Of a DNA stretch of 25,833 nucleotides, positions 15,065-24,563 are shown in pieces (within the stretch, counting starts at the first letter, position 1; each line of letters starts with the position of its first letter). A program made the position numbers and the translations under genes. The notes under the pieces were generated by a model. That model worked only from the letters and a program-made list of their open reading frames with translations. It searched no databases and had not been told where the DNA came from. Origin of the DNA: a virus. Location of the stretch: the IMG/VR virus record IMGVR_UViG_3300024308_000057, positions 1 through 25,833 of that record; one strand, given 5' to 3'.

Positions 15065-15484
15065 ATGGCTCGTGTCTCGCTTCGCAAAAAGGTTTACATC
15101 GCAGGCCCCATGACTGGGTTGATTGATTGCAATCGCCCTGAGTTTCATTTGGCCGCCGATGTTCAGCGCGAGCTTGGCCATATTGTACTTAACCCTGCAA
15201 CCATACCGGATGGATTAACCGAGCCAGAGTACATGGCAATTTGCTTGCCGATGTTGATGTGCTGCGACCGTATTTATCTGCTGGATAACTGGGCTAGCTC
15301 AAAAGGTGCCAAAGCGGAATATGCGCTGGCTAACAAACTTGGCTTAGAGATTGTTTTTCAAGATGGGGTGGATCATGAAATAGCGCTACTCGGTTTGCGG
15401 GGTGATCAATACCATGCTGATGGTCAAGGCTACAGGCCTAAGCCATGTCGCCATGTTTATCAAAATCCGCATGGTGATGACTAA
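15065..15484 (+). CDS. DUF4406 (nucleoside 2-deoxyribosyltransferase-like) protein
   Basis: A 139-aa protein beginning MARVSLRKKVYIAGPMTGLI. The KVYIAGPMTG start, NRPEFHLAADVQRELGHIVL, a proline turn and DRIYLLDNWASSKGAKAEYA, then LGLEIVF are the hallmarks of DUF4406, a family related to nucleoside deoxyribosyltransferases. It could act on nucleotides or a base-sugar bond. The substrate is unknown and no experiment is recalled. The ATG lies 11 bp after the terminator, with weak GGTG as ribosome site. It is the first gene of the late operon, upstream of lysis genes. Confidence 0.85.
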   Translation: MARVSLRKKVYIAGPMTGLIDCNRPEFHLAADVQRELGHIVLNPATIPDGLTEPEYMAICLPMLMCCDRIYLLDNWASSKGAKAEYALANKLGLEIVFQDGVDHEIALLGLRGDQYHADGQGYRPKPCRHVYQNPHGDD

Positions 15485-17270: not shown

Positions 17271-17562
17271 ATCAATCCGCGAAGTTGGCACGCAAAAAAT
17301 GCTCGCCGCTGCGTCTTATAGTGCATCCGCTACAACGGCAGCTGGAGGAGTGTTTACAGTGAATAATTTAGCGCTGTGGATAGGGATATTTTTAACAGTG
17401 CTCACATTCCTTGTTAACTGGATATATCAAGCGTTTAAAGACAGGCGCGACGCGGAGCGGCATGAGTTGCAAACGCAAGTGCTAAAGGCACAGTTAAAAC
17501 AGGTAGAACAACGCAATGGCTCGCATTCAACCCCAAGAGACAGCGCCTGTACTGCTGAATAA
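17257..17562 (+). CDS. class-II / pinholin-like phage holin
   Basis: The ATG at 17257 (MNSTESIREVGTQKMLAAAS) overlaps the Rz1 stop by 14 bp. Two membrane segments: about 15-34, weakly hydrophobic and rich in Ala, Ser and Gly (LAAASYSASATTAAGGVF), and about 39-61 (NLALWIGIFLTVLTFLVNWI). The C-terminus is polar and charged (KDRRDAERHELQ). A weak first TM plus strong second TM is the pattern of the phage 21 pinholin, which suits the SAR endolysin encoded nearby. The holin usually precedes the endolysin; here it ends the cassette. It overlaps nu1 by 47 bp. The family match is judged by eye. Confidence 0.75.
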   Translation: MNSTESIREVGTQKMLAAASYSASATTAAGGVFTVNNLALWIGIFLTVLTFLVNWIYQAFKDRRDAERHELQTQVLKAQLKQVEQRNGSHSTPRDSACTAE

Positions 17563-18049
17563 AACCGGCCTTTGCAAAAGTCTCGGTATCAGTACCCAAG
17601 CGTTTGATAAATGGGATGTGCCAGTCCACAGCAAAAAAGGCCGTGAATGCCTATACACCATGGCCGATGTCGTCGCCAATCGCGTGGCCAACGAGCGGAA
17701 AAAACACCTCAGCAAACCTGATGAAGATGATCCAGAAAAGCCAGATCTCGACTATGAGCGCTGGCGCTTAACCAAAGCTCAAGCTGACGGCCAAGAAATA
17801 AAAAACGAAAAAGAGCGTAAAGAAGTCGTTGAAGTCGGCTTTTGTACCTTTGTACTTAATCGAATCTCTGCCCAAATCGCCCCAGTGCTGGATCAAACCC
17901 ACATTCGGATGAAGCGCAAATATCCCGACATTCCAGAACGCTATATCGATGCATTTAGAGCGGAGATGATTAAAAGCCAAAACACCGTTGCCGAGCTCGC
18001 AGCGGGTATCGAGGACCTACTAGATGAGTATATCGGCAGCACAGATTAA
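17516..18049 (+). CDS. terminase small subunit, lambda Nu1-type
   Basis: A 177-aa protein with a winged-helix N-terminus (LNKTGLCKSLGISTQAFDKW), then LDYERWRLTKAQADGQEIKN and FCTFVLNRISAQIAPVLDQT, each matching lambda Nu1 (IEYERHRLTRAQADAQELKN, FCTFVLSRIAGEIASILDG). It should bind cosB and present DNA to gpA. The terminase genes overlap by 26 bp. The start codon overlaps the holin gene, as if the upstream lysis block had been inserted here. Confidence 0.93.
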   Translation: MARIQPQETAPVLLNKTGLCKSLGISTQAFDKWDVPVHSKKGRECLYTMADVVANRVANERKKHLSKPDEDDPEKPDLDYERWRLTKAQADGQEIKNEKERKEVVEVGFCTFVLNRISAQIAPVLDQTHIRMKRKYPDIPERYIDAFRAEMIKSQNTVAELAAGIEDLLDEYIGSTD

Positions 18050-20024
18050 AAATCTGAAAGCTGCCGTTGCTGCTGGGCTGCGCGGATTCTATCGCCCGCC
18101 CATGCTCACTTGCTCAGAGTACGCCGATGAGCATTTTTATATGTCGTCGGAGTCCAGCTACACCGAGGGCAAGTGGGAGAGCTTACCGTTTCAAATCGGC
18201 ATTCTTAATGCCATGGGTAACGACCAAATCAGCGTGCTCAACTTAATGAAGTCAGCGCGGGTCGGTTACACCAAAATGCTCATGGCTAACGCGGCATATA
18301 AGATTGAGCACAAAAAGCGCAACGTGTTGATCTACCAGCCGCGTGATGGTCAAGCCAAAACCTTTATGAAAAAGCACGTTGAAACGGCGATCCGCGATAT
18401 CCCCGTTTGGCGTGAGCTGGCTCCGTGGATGGGGCGCAAACATAAAGACAGCACGCTGGAAGATAAAATCTTCAGCAACGGCAAAACGCTCATGGTGCGA
18501 GGTGGTACGGCTGCGGCCAACTACCGCGAAATCTCCACCGACGATGTAATTTACGACGAGCTAGCGGGTTTTGATGAATCCATCGAGCACGAAGGTAACG
18601 CCACCTCATTAGGTGATACCCGTATCGAACTGTCGATGTTCCCCAAATCAATCAGGGGATCAACGCCAAAAGTGCTCGGCTCATGCCAGATGGAAAAGGC
18701 CTGCAGCGAATCGCCACATTTTTTTAAATTCAATTTACCGTGCCCACACTGCGGCGAACTGCAATCGCTTAAATGGGGCGGTGCCGAAGAAGCATTCGGC
18801 ATTAAGTGGCGCAAAAATGATAAAGGCGAGCACGACCCAAGCACCGCTTACTATTTGTGTGAGCACTGCGGTTGCTGCATTGAAAACAACCAGCTCGATG
18901 ATATGGAGTTGGATAGTCGCGCAATCTGGATTTGCGAAAATACCGGTATTCGCACCCGCGACTTTATTGATTTTTACGATGCCGAAGGCAACGATATCAC
19001 CACGCCGCCCAATATCTCAATTCATATTTGGTCGGCATATAACTCGCTCAATAGCTGGGCAAAATTGGTCACCGAGTTTTTAAAGGCTAAAGGAGATAAA
19101 GAAAAGCTCCAAACCTTTATCAACACCAAGCTTGGCTTGCCGTGGGATAACGACACAGGCGAGCGCGTTGAGTGGGAAGATTTAAAACGCCGCCGCGAAA
19201 TGTACCCATCAGGCAAAGTGCCCAACTGGGTGGTGTATTTAACCGCAGGTATCGACACCCAAGACGACCGCTATGAGGGCCGTGTATGGGGCTGGGGCGC
19301 GGGTAAAGAGGCGGCACTGATTGACCGCTTTATCCTGTATGGCGATCCATCAAGCCAAGTCTTAAAAGACAAAGTTGCCGAGCGTATAGCTCAAAGCTAT
19401 GCCCGTGCCGATGGGGTGATCCTCAATATTGGCGTAGCGGGTTGGGACTCTGGCGGTCACTACACCGACGATGTTTACGCCATGAGTAAAAAACTTGGCG
19501 TGATGCGGGTAATCCCAGTTAGAGGAGCCAACGTCTACGGCAAGCCGATTGCTAACTTCCCGCGTAAGCGCACCGCTAAAGGGGTGTACTTAACCGAAGT
19601 CGGCACCGACAACGCCAAAGAGTTAATCATGGCTATGTTGCGCATCGACCCCGATGTGGATGTGCGCAAGCCTGGTGCAATTCACTTCCCGTTGAATGAA
19701 TCGGTGTGTGACGATATTGAGCTGCAACAGCTCACTGCCGAACGAAAAATTCCTAAACGGGAAAATGGCCGCATTGTCTACCGCTGGGATGCAGGCAAGC
19801 GCCGTAACGAGGCGCTGGACTGTTTTGTCTACGCCTTGGCCGCGTTGTATATCGCCATCGAAAAGTTTGGCATCAATCTCGACAAGTTGTCGCCCGTTAA
19901 ACCCATCGCCACAGCCAATAGCGAGCAACCCGCCGCAGAACCTAAACCCGCAAGCAAGCCAAAGCCAAGCGCCAACAGTTGGCTAAACGGTGGCGGCGGT
20001 GGTGCAAGCGGCGGCTGGCTGTAA
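18024..20024 (+). CDS. terminase large subunit, lambda gpA-type
   Basis: A 666-aa packaging ATPase and nuclease. Walker A is K76-SARVGYTK (lambda has K76-SARVGYSK at the same place); Walker B is VIYDEL with D178-E179. CPHCG and CEHCG form a zinc-binding element about 240-290. The C-terminal endonuclease region has the conserved AGIDTQDDRYEGRVWGWG (about 409-427), then GWDSGGHYTDDV, and VYALAALYIA near the end. It cuts cos and drives DNA into the prohead. Its C-terminal tail is proline/glycine-rich, likely prohead-binding. Family assignment is firm. Confidence 0.97.
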   Translation: MSISAAQIKNLKAAVAAGLRGFYRPPMLTCSEYADEHFYMSSESSYTEGKWESLPFQIGILNAMGNDQISVLNLMKSARVGYTKMLMANAAYKIEHKKRNVLIYQPRDGQAKTFMKKHVETAIRDIPVWRELAPWMGRKHKDSTLEDKIFSNGKTLMVRGGTAAANYREISTDDVIYDELAGFDESIEHEGNATSLGDTRIELSMFPKSIRGSTPKVLGSCQMEKACSESPHFFKFNLPCPHCGELQSLKWGGAEEAFGIKWRKNDKGEHDPSTAYYLCEHCGCCIENNQLDDMELDSRAIWICENTGIRTRDFIDFYDAEGNDITTPPNISIHIWSAYNSLNSWAKLVTEFLKAKGDKEKLQTFINTKLGLPWDNDTGERVEWEDLKRRREMYPSGKVPNWVVYLTAGIDTQDDRYEGRVWGWGAGKEAALIDRFILYGDPSSQVLKDKVAERIAQSYARADGVILNIGVAGWDSGGHYTDDVYAMSKKLGVMRVIPVRGANVYGKPIANFPRKRTAKGVYLTEVGTDNAKELIMAMLRIDPDVDVRKPGAIHFPLNESVCDDIELQQLTAERKIPKRENGRIVYRWDAGKRRNEALDCFVYALAALYIAIEKFGINLDKLSPVKPIATANSEQPAAEPKPASKPKPSANSWLNGGGGGASGGWL

Positions 20025-20049
20025 TGCATAGATAGCAACAGGAAAACTC

Positions 20050-20256
20050 ATGAGCCAACAACAATGCCAACAGATGATCGATGCGTATATCGCAGCCGAA
20101 CTTGATGTACTTGAGGGGAAATCAACCACTATCAACGGCAAGTTAATGACCACCGAAGATCTTGGCGAAATCCGCAAAGGCCGCATGGAGTGGGAACGCC
20201 GCTTAGCAGCTTACAGCCGACCACAAGGCGGCGTTAAATTCGCAAGTTTTAACTAG
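20050..20256 (+). CDS. gpW-like head-to-tail joining protein
   Basis: A 68-aa protein, about the length of lambda gpW (68 aa), directly between terminase and portal as in lambda. Helix 1 (QQCQQMIDAYIAAELDVLEG), a beta-hairpin with INGKLMTTEDLGEI, then a helix RMEWERRLAAYSRP reproduce gpW. It closes the filled head and offers the tail-attachment site. AGGA lies 7 nt before the ATG. The call is supported by both shape and position. Confidence 0.88.
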   Translation: MSQQQCQQMIDAYIAAELDVLEGKSTTINGKLMTTEDLGEIRKGRMEWERRLAAYSRPQGGVKFASFN

Positions 20257-20264
20257 GAGTTCAA

Positions 20265-20549
20265 ATGGATAATCAGCATAAAAAAATCAAAGGCTACCGT
20301 GATTTGAGTCAGCAAGAAATTGATTTAATGAACCGAATTAAAGAGCACGGTGAAAAGACGAAAGAGTTGATAAAAGAACTTCGCACTATGCGAGGTAATC
20401 AATATCAAGATTATTGCCAAAATCAACCTATTGATTTAAGCCAAGTTCAGTTGCATGAATCAGTGCGTTGTCTTGATATTGCACAAGAAAAAATTCAAAC
20501 AGGCCAAATGTGGTTTGTTCGTGCAGTTGCCTTACCTGATTCATTCTAA
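20265..20549 (+). CDS. Acb2/Tad1-family anti-CBASS cyclic-nucleotide sponge
   Basis: A 94-aa protein. The N-terminus MDNQHKKIKGYRDLSQQEID then LMNRIKEHGEKTKELIKELR follows the Acb2 pattern of Pseudomonas phage PaMx33 and T4 Vs.4, with Y11 and K26 at the positions I recall as important for cyclic-nucleotide binding. The C-terminus WFVRAVALPDSF mirrors the family's ALVRAVAQPTTF ending. Acb2 hexamers soak up the 3',3'-cGAMP-type messengers that would trigger CBASS suicide. The middle (about 44-76) is longer and more divergent than typical. It is more AT-rich than the flanking head genes and inserted between gpW and portal, as a moron would be. AGGAGT stands 4 nt before the ATG. Confidence 0.85.
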   Translation: MDNQHKKIKGYRDLSQQEIDLMNRIKEHGEKTKELIKELRTMRGNQYQDYCQNQPIDLSQVQLHESVRCLDIAQEKIQTGQMWFVRAVALPDSF

Positions 20550-20560
20550 AGAGGCTCTTT

Positions 20561-22159
20561 ATGAGCATTATCAACGATGCGCTGGCGCTGTTTTCACCGG
20601 CGTGGGCACTCAAGCGCGAAGCGGCGGCCATGAGCTATCGCGGCCTAAAAGACCATTCTATAAACGCCTATGAAGCCGCCAACCCAAGCCGCACTCACCG
20701 TGCTCAAAAGGAAAGTCGCGGCGCCAACCAAGCGGTATTTGCGGCGGGTAAAAGCCTGCGCGAGCAAGCCCGTTGGTTAGATGAAAACCACGACTTAAGT
20801 ATCGGCATATTAGACCGCTTTGAAGAACGGGTTATCGGTGCTCAAGGGATTGTGGTTGAACCGCAGCCGCGCAGTATGAGCGGCGAAATCTTGGACGAAC
20901 TCGCCAATGATATTCAGCGCCGTTTCGCCACTTGGTCGCTTAAGTGTGATGTTACAGGCCGCTTTAGTCGCCCAGAGCTTGAGCGCTTAGTGCTGCGTAG
21001 CGCACTGCGTGATGGTGACGTATTCGGTCAGCATGTGATGGGGCGCGTTAGCAAGTTTGGTCATCCAAACGAGCAGGGCACCCAATACAGCATCGAAGCG
21101 TTAGAAGCCGACTTTATTCCCTACGAGTTAAACGAACCCGCAAATCGGGTACGCCAAGGGCTTGAGGTTAACGCTTGGGGCCAAGTGATTAACTATCACG
21201 TATTGCTTGATCACCCCGCTGATCAAGTCGGTTTTCGACACAAAACAAAACCGATACCCGCATCAAATATGATGCACCTCGGTTTATTCAAGCGATTGCA
21301 CCAGCTGCGCGGCGTGTCGATATTCCACGGCATTTTAACCCGCTTAGCAGACATTAAAGACTATGAAGAATCCGAGCGCGTAGCCGCAAGGATAGCCGCT
21401 GCGCTGGCGTTTTATATCAAGCGTGGTGATGCTCAAAGCTATGTTCATGATCAAAGTAATGAATCCAGCAGTCGCGAAATCCCCATTGCACCAGGCATGA
21501 CGTTTGACGATTTAAAGCCCGGTGAAGATGTCGGGATGATTGAATCAAATCGCCCCAACGTCCACATGGTGGAGTTTCGCAACGGTCAAATGAAAGCCGT
21601 CGCAGCGGGTAGCCGTGGCAGTTACTCGAGTATATCGCGCGACTACAAAGGCAGTTATTCAAGCCAGCGCCAAGAGCTGGTTGAGCAAGACGAATCCAAC
21701 CGCATTATGCAGCAATGGTTTTGTGCCGGTTGGTCGCGCCCAGTGTTTCGTAACTTCTTAAAAATGGAAATGCTCAACAAGCAAGACCCATTAGTGCTAC
21801 CGCCCGATCTCGACCTGCGCACGTTGTTCGATGCTGTGTACTACGGCCCAACTATGCCGTGGATTGACCCGCGCAAAGAGGCCGAAGGTTGGGAAATGAT
21901 GATTGCAGCCAACGTAGCTACTGAAGCCGATTGGACACGCGCCCGAGGCCGTAACCCAACCGAAGTGAAGCGCCAGCGTAAACGCGAGGTGGAATACAAC
22001 CGTCAAAACCACATGGTGACCGCCAACGACCCCGACCCATCGCTAGGAGATCCAAATAGTGAAAAAGACCCCAATAGCAGTAGCGGTAGCAACGCTAAGC
22101 GCAATGCTGCCAAACGGAACGCTGATCGCGCCCGCCGCAACGCTGAGCCAGATCAGTAA
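20561..22159 (+). CDS. portal protein, lambda gpB-type
   Basis: A 532-aa protein of the lambda portal family: SRGANQAVFAAGKSLREQAR, LDENHDLSIGILDRFEERVI, LRDGDVFGQHVMGRVSKFGH, then a clip/wing region with MMHLGLFKRLHQLRGVSIFH and EQDESNRIMQQWFCAGWSRP. A dodecameric portal channels DNA into the head and nucleates head assembly. The C-terminal tail is charged and repetitive (KRNAAKRNADRARRNAEPDQ) and overlaps the next gene by about 100 nt. AGAGG lies 6 nt before the ATG. Confidence 0.96.
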   Translation: MSIINDALALFSPAWALKREAAAMSYRGLKDHSINAYEAANPSRTHRAQKESRGANQAVFAAGKSLREQARWLDENHDLSIGILDRFEERVIGAQGIVVEPQPRSMSGEILDELANDIQRRFATWSLKCDVTGRFSRPELERLVLRSALRDGDVFGQHVMGRVSKFGHPNEQGTQYSIEALEADFIPYELNEPANRVRQGLEVNAWGQVINYHVLLDHPADQVGFRHKTKPIPASNMMHLGLFKRLHQLRGVSIFHGILTRLADIKDYEESERVAARIAAALAFYIKRGDAQSYVHDQSNESSSREIPIAPGMTFDDLKPGEDVGMIESNRPNVHMVEFRNGQMKAVAAGSRGSYSSISRDYKGSYSSQRQELVEQDESNRIMQQWFCAGWSRPVFRNFLKMEMLNKQDPLVLPPDLDLRTLFDAVYYGPTMPWIDPRKEAEGWEMMIAANVATEADWTRARGRNPTEVKRQRKREVEYNRQNHMVTANDPDPSLGDPNSEKDPNSSSGSNAKRNAAKRNADRARRNAEPDQ

Positions 22160-24161
22160 CAGCTCACAACCAAGCCAAAGCTGGTACAGCCTCAAGGCAC
22201 AAAACGGTAACGCTGAGCTAATGATTTATGACGAGATTGGCGGTTGGGGTATTAGTGCCCAACAGTTCGCCCGTGATCTCAAAAATCTAGGCAAAGTCGG
22301 TACCATCACCGCCCGTATTCATTCGCCTGGTGGGGATGTGTTCGAAGGGATGGCGATTTACAACATGATCAAAGGCCACCCAGCGCACAAGGTCTGTTAT
22401 ATCGATGGCCTAGCGGCATCAATGGCCAGTGTGATCGCCATGGCGTTTGATGAAATCATCATGCCTGAAAACGCCATGATGATGATCCACAAGCCTTGGG
22501 GCGGAACCCTAGGTGATGCGGATGATATGCGCAAATACGCCGATTTACTCGACAAAGTGGAAGGTAACTTAGTCGGTGCTTATCAACAAAAAACAGGCTT
22601 ACCCGAAGATGAGCTTCACGCCCTATTAGCCGCTGAAACATGGCTAACAGGCCGCGAGGCAGTGGAAAAAGGTTTTGCCAATACCCTAACCGATCCGCTG
22701 CAAATGGCGGCATCACTTAATTCAAAACGTCTTAAGGATTTTACGAATATGCCTGAACATCTAAAAAACCTGTTTGCACCAAAGGGAAATATTCCTTCGT
22801 CTGCACCAGCACCACAACCAGCCCCTGCGCCAAGTGCTCAGGTTCCCGCACCAGCAAACCAACCCGCGCCCGCTGCTCAACCTGATGCCGCGGCTATTCA
22901 AGCGGCGGCGATTGCATTTAATACCGCGCGTATTAATGGCATTAACACGGCGTTTGCGGCATTCCCGCAACTGGCCGAGTTAAAGAATCAGTGTATCGCT
23001 GATGCGTCCATTGATGCCGATAAAGCCAAAGATATGATCTTGGCAAAGCTTGGCGAAAACACCACGCCAGCGGCGACCATGCCAAATCGGGTGATTATCC
23101 ACTCTGGTAACGGCAATATCGTCGGTGACTCAATTCGCGCTCACCTGATGACCCGTGCAGGCCATGAAGAAGCCCAAGCGGATAACGGCTACGCCAGTTA
23201 TAACCTGCGCGAACTGGCGCGCGCTAGCTTGGTGGATCGTGGTATTGGTATCGCTAGCATGACTCCAATGCAAATGGTTGGCTTAGCCTTTACTCATTCA
23301 AGCTCTGACTTTGGTAGCATTCTGCTGGATGTGGCAAATAAGTCGGTATTGATGGGTTGGGAAACCGCCGAAGAAACCTTCGAGCGTTGGACTAAAAAAG
23401 GTCAACTAGGCGACTTTAAGATTGCGAAGCGTGTAGGCCTTGGTGACTTCAACAGCCTGCGTGAAGTGCGCGAAGGTGCGGAATACAAGTACGTCACCGT
23501 TGGTGATCACTCACAACAAATCGCCCTAGCGACTTATGGTGAGCTGTTCACTATTACTCGCCAAGCCATTATCAACGACGATATGAGTATGTTGACTGAT
23601 ATCCCGATGAAGATGGGTTTTGCCGCCAAAGGAACCATTGGTGACTTAGTTTATGCGGTGTTAACGCAAAATCCAAAACTGGCCGATGGTAAAGCGCTGT
23701 TCCATGCCGATCACGGCAACCTAGGCAGCGGTGCGCCCAGCGTGGCCAGCCTCGATGCGGCGCGTATGTTAATGCGTAAGCAGAAATCAGGTAATCGCAC
23801 CCTGAATATCCGCCCTGAGTTTGTACTGTGTCCGGTTGCGTTAGAAACCACCTTTAACCAGATCATCAAGTCGAGTTCTGTTAAGGGTGCCGATGTTAAC
23901 GCAGGTATCGCTAACCCGATCCAAAACTTTGCTGAAGTTATTGCTGAGGCTCGCCTCGATGATAGCAGCGCCGCCGCGTGGTTCCTCGCAGCAGGCCAAG
24001 GTCGCGACACCATCGAAGTGGCTTACCTCGATGGTATCGATACGCCTTACATCGAGCAGCAACAAGGCTTCACTATCGACGGCGTAGCGACCAAGGTGCG
24101 TATCGATGCCGGTGTAGCGCCACTGGATCACCGTGGCTTGGTGAAATCAACCGGCGTGTAA
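22059..24161 (+). CDS. ClpP-like prohead protease / scaffold / major capsid fusion
   Basis: The start is a GTG at 22059 with AGGAG 10 nt upstream, inside the portal gene. The 700-aa product has three parts. Residues about 40-230 are an S14 ClpP-like protease: IHSPGGDVFEGMAI, nucleophile S121 (GLAASMAS), H144 (MMIHKPWGG), and D165 as a likely third residue. Residues about 240-330 are a proline/alanine-rich linker and helical scaffold. Residues about 345-700 are a major capsid protein (IRAHLMTRAG..., ARASLVDRGIG, FHADHGNLGSG, NAGIANPIQNFAEV). Fusion of the protease and scaffold with the capsid is well known in related phages. An internal start at 22749 (AAGGA 10 nt upstream) may give a separate scaffold-capsid product, as lambda Nu3 lies within C. 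Confidence 0.92.
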   Translation: MKKTPIAVAVATLSAMLPNGTLIAPAATLSQISNSSQPSQSWYSLKAQNGNAELMIYDEIGGWGISAQQFARDLKNLGKVGTITARIHSPGGDVFEGMAIYNMIKGHPAHKVCYIDGLAASMASVIAMAFDEIIMPENAMMMIHKPWGGTLGDADDMRKYADLLDKVEGNLVGAYQQKTGLPEDELHALLAAETWLTGREAVEKGFANTLTDPLQMAASLNSKRLKDFTNMPEHLKNLFAPKGNIPSSAPAPQPAPAPSAQVPAPANQPAPAAQPDAAAIQAAAIAFNTARINGINTAFAAFPQLAELKNQCIADASIDADKAKDMILAKLGENTTPAATMPNRVIIHSGNGNIVGDSIRAHLMTRAGHEEAQADNGYASYNLRELARASLVDRGIGIASMTPMQMVGLAFTHSSSDFGSILLDVANKSVLMGWETAEETFERWTKKGQLGDFKIAKRVGLGDFNSLREVREGAEYKYVTVGDHSQQIALATYGELFTITRQAIINDDMSMLTDIPMKMGFAAKGTIGDLVYAVLTQNPKLADGKALFHADHGNLGSGAPSVASLDAARMLMRKQKSGNRTLNIRPEFVLCPVALETTFNQIIKSSSVKGADVNAGIANPIQNFAEVIAEARLDDSSAAAWFLAAGQGRDTIEVAYLDGIDTPYIEQQQGFTIDGVATKVRIDAGVAPLDHRGLVKSTGV

Positions 24162-24239: not shown

Positions 24240-24563
24240 ATGAAAAATTACATTCAAGATGGCAAGACCATCAGCTTTACACCAACAGCAGCGGTTGCCA
24301 GCGGTGAAGCCGTTTTGCTTGGTATGTTGTTAGTGGTAGCCATCGCCGCTATTGCTGCCAATACTCCAGGCGAAGGCGTCACTGAAGGCGTGTTCGAACT
24401 GCCTAAAAAGTCCACCGATGATGTTGCGTTAGGTGTTGATCTTTACTGGGACGATACTGCTAACGAACTCTCCACCACGGCCACCGACAATACCAAAGTC
24501 GGTAAGGCTTGGGCTGCGGCAGGAAACGGCACTGCCACGGTTTGGGTAAAGATCAATGCCTAA
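24240..24563 (+). CDS. DUF2190 capsid cement/decoration protein
   Basis: A 107-aa protein starting MKNYIQDGKTISFTPTAAVA. The pattern (NYIQDG, SGEAVLLGMLLVVA, GVFELPKKS, DVALGVDLYWDD, GKAWAAAGNGTATVWVKI) belongs to DUF2190, a beta-rich family found next to capsid genes and thought to decorate the capsid like lambda gpD. AAGGA lies before the ATG. It directly follows the capsid gene and its stop overlaps the next gene. Confidence 0.85.
   Translation: MKNYIQDGKTISFTPTAAVASGEAVLLGMLLVVAIAAIAANTPGEGVTEGVFELPKKSTDDVALGVDLYWDDTANELSTTATDNTKVGKAWAAAGNGTATVWVKINA

Follow-up and report, generated by a model that had tools for sequence, protein, structure and literature searches.

A predicted Acb2 sponge gene inserted alone into the late head operon of a temperate lambdoid phage

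The acb2 gene and the surrounding head operon

The window, i.e., the whole 25,833-nucleotide stretch of viral DNA that was analysed (IMG/VR record IMGVR_UViG_3300024308_000057), carries a short open reading frame, here called acb2, between a gpW-like gene and the portal gene. The features needed below are the following; relatives of the window are designated by L numbers.

15065-15484: DUF4406 protein, 139 aa, before the lysis genes (PF14359, E=9.7e-37; phrog_355, nucleoside 2-deoxyribosyltransferase)
17516-18049: Nu1 (PF07471)
18024-20024: large terminase gpA (PF05876/PF20454)
20050-20256, + strand: gpW-like head-tail adaptor, left flank (phrog_118, E=1.8e-22)
20255-20259, + strand: ribosome-binding site AGGAG of acb2, read from the sequence, overlapping the gpW stop codon (20254-20256)
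20265-20549, + strand: acb2, predicted cyclic-oligonucleotide sponge, 94 aa (PF24729, PDB 8h2j, fold)
20295-20297, + strand: codon of Y11, counterpart of T4 Acb2 Y8 in the cyclic-dinucleotide site (alignment to the T4 tyrosine)
20340-20342, + strand: codon of K26; the aligned position of T4 Vs.4 is also K
20394-20492, + strand: variable middle, residues 44-76 (end of the first helix, hairpin tip, start of the second helix)
20550-20560, + strand: linker before the portal gene, with a ribosome-site-like AGAGG (20550-20554)
20561-22159, + strand: lambda-family portal, right flank (PF05136, E=4.1e-89)
22059-24161: ClpP-like protease joined to the capsid protein in a single 700-aa frame
24240-24563: cement protein

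The acb2 frame opens with ATG at 20265 and closes with TAA at 20547-20549, and both coordinates and frame agree with the preliminary description, which had placed a 94-aa gene between gpW and the portal gene. A Pfam search with the gpW-like adaptor itself returned zero matches. In the relative L046, the ClpP-like protease and the capsid protein are split into frames of 291 and 374 aa. The window also encodes a CI-like repressor, a CII-like activator, an integrase, and O-like and DnaC-like proteins, and from this lysogeny and replication gene content the phage looks temperate. The DUF4406 protein is a possible nucleotide-metabolism gene product.

The GC content of acb2 is 36.2% (GC3 28.7%), compared with 49.5% (GC3 51.5%) for gpW and 53.1% (GC3 55.3%) for the portal gene; the gene is thus AT-richer than its neighbours, as had been described. 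Equally AT-rich stretches of 282 nt make up 4.0% of the window and occur in eight places, acb2 among them. Promoter-like sites between 17300 and 22200 number three, all on the − strand, with 4.5 expected by shuffling, and no + strand terminator-like site was found from TerL to the portal gene. Since neither a promoter nor a terminator of its own is recognised, joint transcription of acb2 with the head genes is likely. The sequence AAAGAGGC, in which the last A's of the stop codon are counted, is found after acb2 also in L002, L005 and L046, and the linker at 20550-20560 probably moves together with acb2.

Family membership, conserved residues and fold

A check of the 94-aa protein against the Acb2_Tad1 family gave a confident match, i.e., to Pfam PF24729 (Acb2_Tad1_hairpin) at 1.4e-16 and 60.9 bits, compared with a curated cut-off of 27. 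The best PDB sequence match is p26 (8h2j, and also the 8ixz series; E=7.6e-22), of which 8H2J is, according to a figure legend in PMC11722364, PaP2 Acb2 with 3′3′-cGAMP. T4 Vs.4 (7uq2) is matched at E=0.022 by single sequence and at E=4.8e-9 by profile, and the 48-sequence profile finds solely p26 and T4 Vs.4 in the PDB (three distinct sequences, E≤1). PADLOC returned zero matches for nine proteins, and NCBIfam gave one match only, far below its cut-off. The nearest PHROG, 717, is without an assigned function; its profile has 289 positions, the 94-aa protein spans only 199-286 of these, and longer or fused PHROG 717 members may exist.

Residue conservation was read from 52 aligned sequences, i.e., the window protein and 51 others from 127 loci, after removal of 69 near-duplicates and of seven frames below 70 or above 118 aa, limits by which the length range is trimmed. 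The homologues were fetched (80 of 300 viral loci taken) by patterns containing residues 1-8 and 16-23, so N-terminal conservation is somewhat favoured in the following values. Unchanging in all 52 sequences are M1, N3, Q4, H5, K7, I8, G10, Y11, L14, N23, K26, A89 and P91, and R68 is kept in 92% of them. The conservation by position that had been proposed for Y11 and K26 extends to 127/127 loci, with the window and broken copies counted. K26 presumably has a ligand role, and R68 (R67 in PaP2) is taken by us to be involved in trinucleotide binding. Both end features of the preliminary description, YRDLS..MNRIK at the N-terminus and FVRAVALPDSF at the C-terminus, are present in the protein.

Compared with PaP2 Acb2 (8H2J, 8H2X and the 8IXZ series), the window protein shares the hairpin fold, Y11, K26, R67/68, the C-terminal PDSF and 46 of 94 residues, with 23/26 identical in residues 1-26 and 12/18 in residues 77-94. 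In contrast, residues 27-76 are identical at 11/50 positions (4/17 for 27-43 and 7/33 for 44-76), and the mean top-residue frequency among the 52 sequences falls from 0.88 (residues 1-26) to 0.38 (residues 27-43). The middle had been described as both divergent and lengthened relative to typical Acb2. The divergence holds, whereas the lengthening does not, the window protein being one residue longer than solved PaP2 Acb2 (94 vs. 93 aa). Homologues range from 74 to 117 aa with a middle value of 83, 40 of the 52 being shorter and ten longer than 94 aa, and 94 aa is long solely relative to the compact forms of 74-76 aa. The ligand set may conceivably differ from that of typical Acb2, as had been suggested, but the argument from length is weak. 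In L046 (5001-5225), a 74-aa Acb2 has H at both near-invariant positions M82 and R86, and its binding is possibly altered.

T4 Acb2/Vs.4 (7UQ2) is related to the window protein by the profile match and by fold, and its Y8 aligns with Y11; the identity, however, is 24-27%. Passages of PMC12657218 report that Y8A disrupts cyclic-dinucleotide binding by T4 Acb2 and that its F82 stacks on the ligand. A point against the assignment is that the F82 position is A89 in the 94-aa protein, although it is A88 in PaP2 as well.

The AT-rich composition of acb2, and the existence of broken copies in the family, e.g., that of PaMx41 (from its annotation and from passages of reviews), would suit a decayed or inactive remnant of Acb2 in the operon. 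However, the frame is open over its full length and has a ribosome site and intact conserved residues. In addition, L002 and L005 differ from the window by 6 and 9 synonymous codon changes in residues 1-26 but by no amino acid, a pattern that fits selection acting at the protein level. Decay is therefore very improbable. In two Pseudomonas genomes (L093:5001-5111 and L112:5001-5171), acb2 stops early in frame after 36 and 56 aa, similar to PaMx41.

An AlphaFold model of the protein (48 sequences, single chain; pLDDT 91.0, pTM 0.72) contains two long antiparallel helices, residues 16-51 and 60-88, which is the helical hairpin that had been anticipated. The top eight Foldseek matches are all Acb2/Vs.4 chains (E from 6.1e-6 to 9.7e-3), and the ninth has E=1.4. 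A review passage describes Acb2 with a short N-terminal helix ahead of the hairpin; residues 1-10 of the model have a mean pLDDT of 58, and no such helix is seen in that low-confidence stretch. The VIA-align Z scores, 9.6-9.7 for Acb2/Vs.4 vs. 8.6 for unrelated helical hairpins, separate Acb2 poorly from other helical hairpins and were kept out of the main evidence.

PF24729 is named after the hairpin of Acb2 and Tad1 alike, and a Tad1-type sponge, which counteracts Thoeris and binds gcADPR and cyclic oligonucleotides, would share this family. However, a review passage gives Tad1 an N-terminal antiparallel β-sheet, and the model has no strand of at least three residues and lacks such a sheet. 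Moreover, the PDB sequence matches are p26 (Acb2) and Vs.4, and no Tad1 chain occurs among the best 50 of 133 Foldseek matches, leaving a Tad1 assignment with hardly any probability. Thus, family profile and hairpin fold together bear out the Acb2-type identity first proposed for the gene at 20265-20549, and the 94-aa protein is predicted to be a clear further member of the Acb2 family and, by kinship, a cyclic-nucleotide sponge of the kind that sequesters the alarm molecules of CBASS, a bacterial immune system.

The gpW/portal junction in relatives

The gpW/portal junction was surveyed in 80 of 245 IMG/VR portal relatives, of which 76 have a gpW call (all except L143, L169, L170 and L172). 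The junction holds acb2 in five of the 76 (L128, L147, L148, L159 and L002), with four distinct sequences among them, and all five fall among the 41 relatives with a portal identity of 69% or more. L147 equals L148 over 9,557 bases. L128 and L001 share a contig, and L001 shows no difference from the window over 10,282 bases, so the distinct carriers independent of the window number three. In the remaining 71 junctions, the gap is no longer than 114 bases and contains no + strand frame of 30 aa; this includes the gaps of L144 (114 bases) and L145 (109 bases), the former being GC-rich (0.58 vs. 0.48 for the locus).

The empty relative L129 is 95.1% identical in DNA to the window over 17492-20255 and 90.5% identical from 20561, and it has 21 bases in place of acb2. 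Set against L129, acb2 stands out as one AT-rich gene inserted between gpW and the portal gene, and the local anatomy of this insertion is what is new here. Portals of L002, L005 and L046 are 92-96% identical, whereas their Acb2 proteins agree at 55-75% of the aligned residues, indicating that acb2 has been exchanged or evolves more quickly than the flanking sequence. Empty junctions of the L151 type carry the leader that precedes acb2 elsewhere, and the empty L149 junction carries the linker that follows acb2 in relatives, which is perhaps a scar of acb2 loss. This likeness to the L151 and L149 empty junctions suggests repeated gain or loss of acb2; the leaders would suit losses from an occupied ancestor, but equally stepwise gain.

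Beyond the IMG/VR relatives, acb2 was found in none of 19 gpW/portal junctions from 394 genomes belonging to the same order as Enterovibrio nigricans; 21 of these genomes contained a total of 23 portal matches at E≤1e-100, of which L219, L221, L223 and L224 were excluded as lacking a gpW call. A near-identity search of phage records with 13.8 kb of the window returned zero matches, and by protein 83 phage records contain portal relatives, every one less than 60% identical.

A small head-assembly or neck protein that merely shares the hairpin fold could also account for the position of acb2 in the head operon and for the absence of a recognised acb2 promoter. However, heads can form without acb2, since 71 of the 76 relatives lack it at the junction; homologues elsewhere adjoin tail, lysis, packaging or DNA-metabolism genes, and the protein is identical at many residues to a cyclic-nucleotide sponge of solved structure, which together make a structural role most improbable. 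A more speculative proposal, which we hold to be rather unlikely, builds on the Acb2 assignment: the gpW/portal junction might be an exchange site for anti-immune cassettes, at which a whole acb2 enters or leaves between two ribosome-site leaders, while the variable hairpin tip is replaced or evolves rapidly, with an altered ligand range such that, e.g., CBASS signals are held and Panoptes decoy nucleotides are spared.

Late-gene neighbourhoods and the proposed role

Relatives of the 94-aa protein occur in 231 of 50,697 phage records (E≤0.01). Neighbour assignment by the window's own proteins caught close lambdoid relatives only (among the first 50 loci listed), and the wider survey was therefore built on deposited annotation, from which positions were read for 19 phages chosen non-randomly among the best 60 of the 231 records. 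In this sample, giant phages are under-represented (GAP32 alone of several), and PVP-XSN with XM1, and Zuri with PB119, share layouts and are thus partly non-independent. In 13 of the 19 phages, acb2 lies within 2 kb of a same-strand structural, packaging or lysis gene (VP882, PVP-XSN, Shewanella 1/41, 252E42.2, Ps60, XM1, 5400, Zuri, PB119, Arash, CHOED, 733R5 and Amona, the match in the last being covered by no single annotated gene). The six without a late neighbourhood are PaMx41, GAP32, D479, D181, LASTA (whose neighbours are without names) and 9A; in PaMx41, which is related to PaP2, acb2 differs in ending a DNA-metabolism operon. In several Pseudomonas phages (e.g., MK511058.1), one of the features that overlap the acb2 match is labelled 'NAD/FAD-utilizing enzyme', and in Ps60, where the gene upstream of acb2 overlaps it by one base, the label could belong to either.

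The head operon of JBD67 (Pseudomonas, Beetrevirus) likewise contains acb2. The JBD67 gene, however, encodes 108 aa and is flanked by a head-tail adaptor gene on one side and, beyond one small gene, by the major head protein gene on the other, and the Ps60 Acb2, which is identical to the JBD67 copy, is 34.9% identical to the window protein. Thus, a late-gene neighbourhood of acb2 is common, and the late-operon position, which had been called notable for an anti-immune gene, is not unusual. No published account of a late-operon or structural-gene placement of Acb2 appeared among the matches listed, in a search that left subscription papers mostly outside.

We consider it highly probable that, in this temperate lambdoid phage, the one gene inserted into the late head operon encodes an Acb2 sponge, which would serve against CBASS. 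After infection or prophage induction, acb2 would most likely be co-transcribed with the terminase, gpW, portal and capsid genes, and its translation would be coupled to the gpW stop. The 94-aa protein would assemble into the Acb2 hexamer, with CBASS cyclic dinucleotides bound in pockets formed from the conserved N- and C-terminal ends (Y11, K26) and cyclic trinucleotides perhaps bound at the trimer interface; an Acb2 protein binds such nucleotides without cleaving them. A sponge made late, alongside the head proteins, would keep CBASS effectors from being triggered during virion assembly.

In support of this role, a passage of PMC12043709 places Acb2 activity during induction rather than lysogeny, and passages of PMC10419184 and PMC10286901 report that acb2-deleted phages carried a capsid mutation aiding escape from CBASS. 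However, the latter two speak against a simple capsid link, in that the wild-type capsid failed to set off CBASS toxicity, the mutation was insufficient and direct evidence was lacking. A further point against is that, for the JBD67 acb2 deletion mutant, a passage of PMC13083879, citing Huiting 2023, states that Acb2 restored titres only partly.

The presence of acb2 among head genes was already known from JBD67, and no concept is changed by the present locus. What it adds is a clear case in which a temperate phage keeps a predicted CBASS sponge in its late head operon, and the window and L129 form a close occupied/empty pair suited to weighing the cost of acb2 against its benefit.
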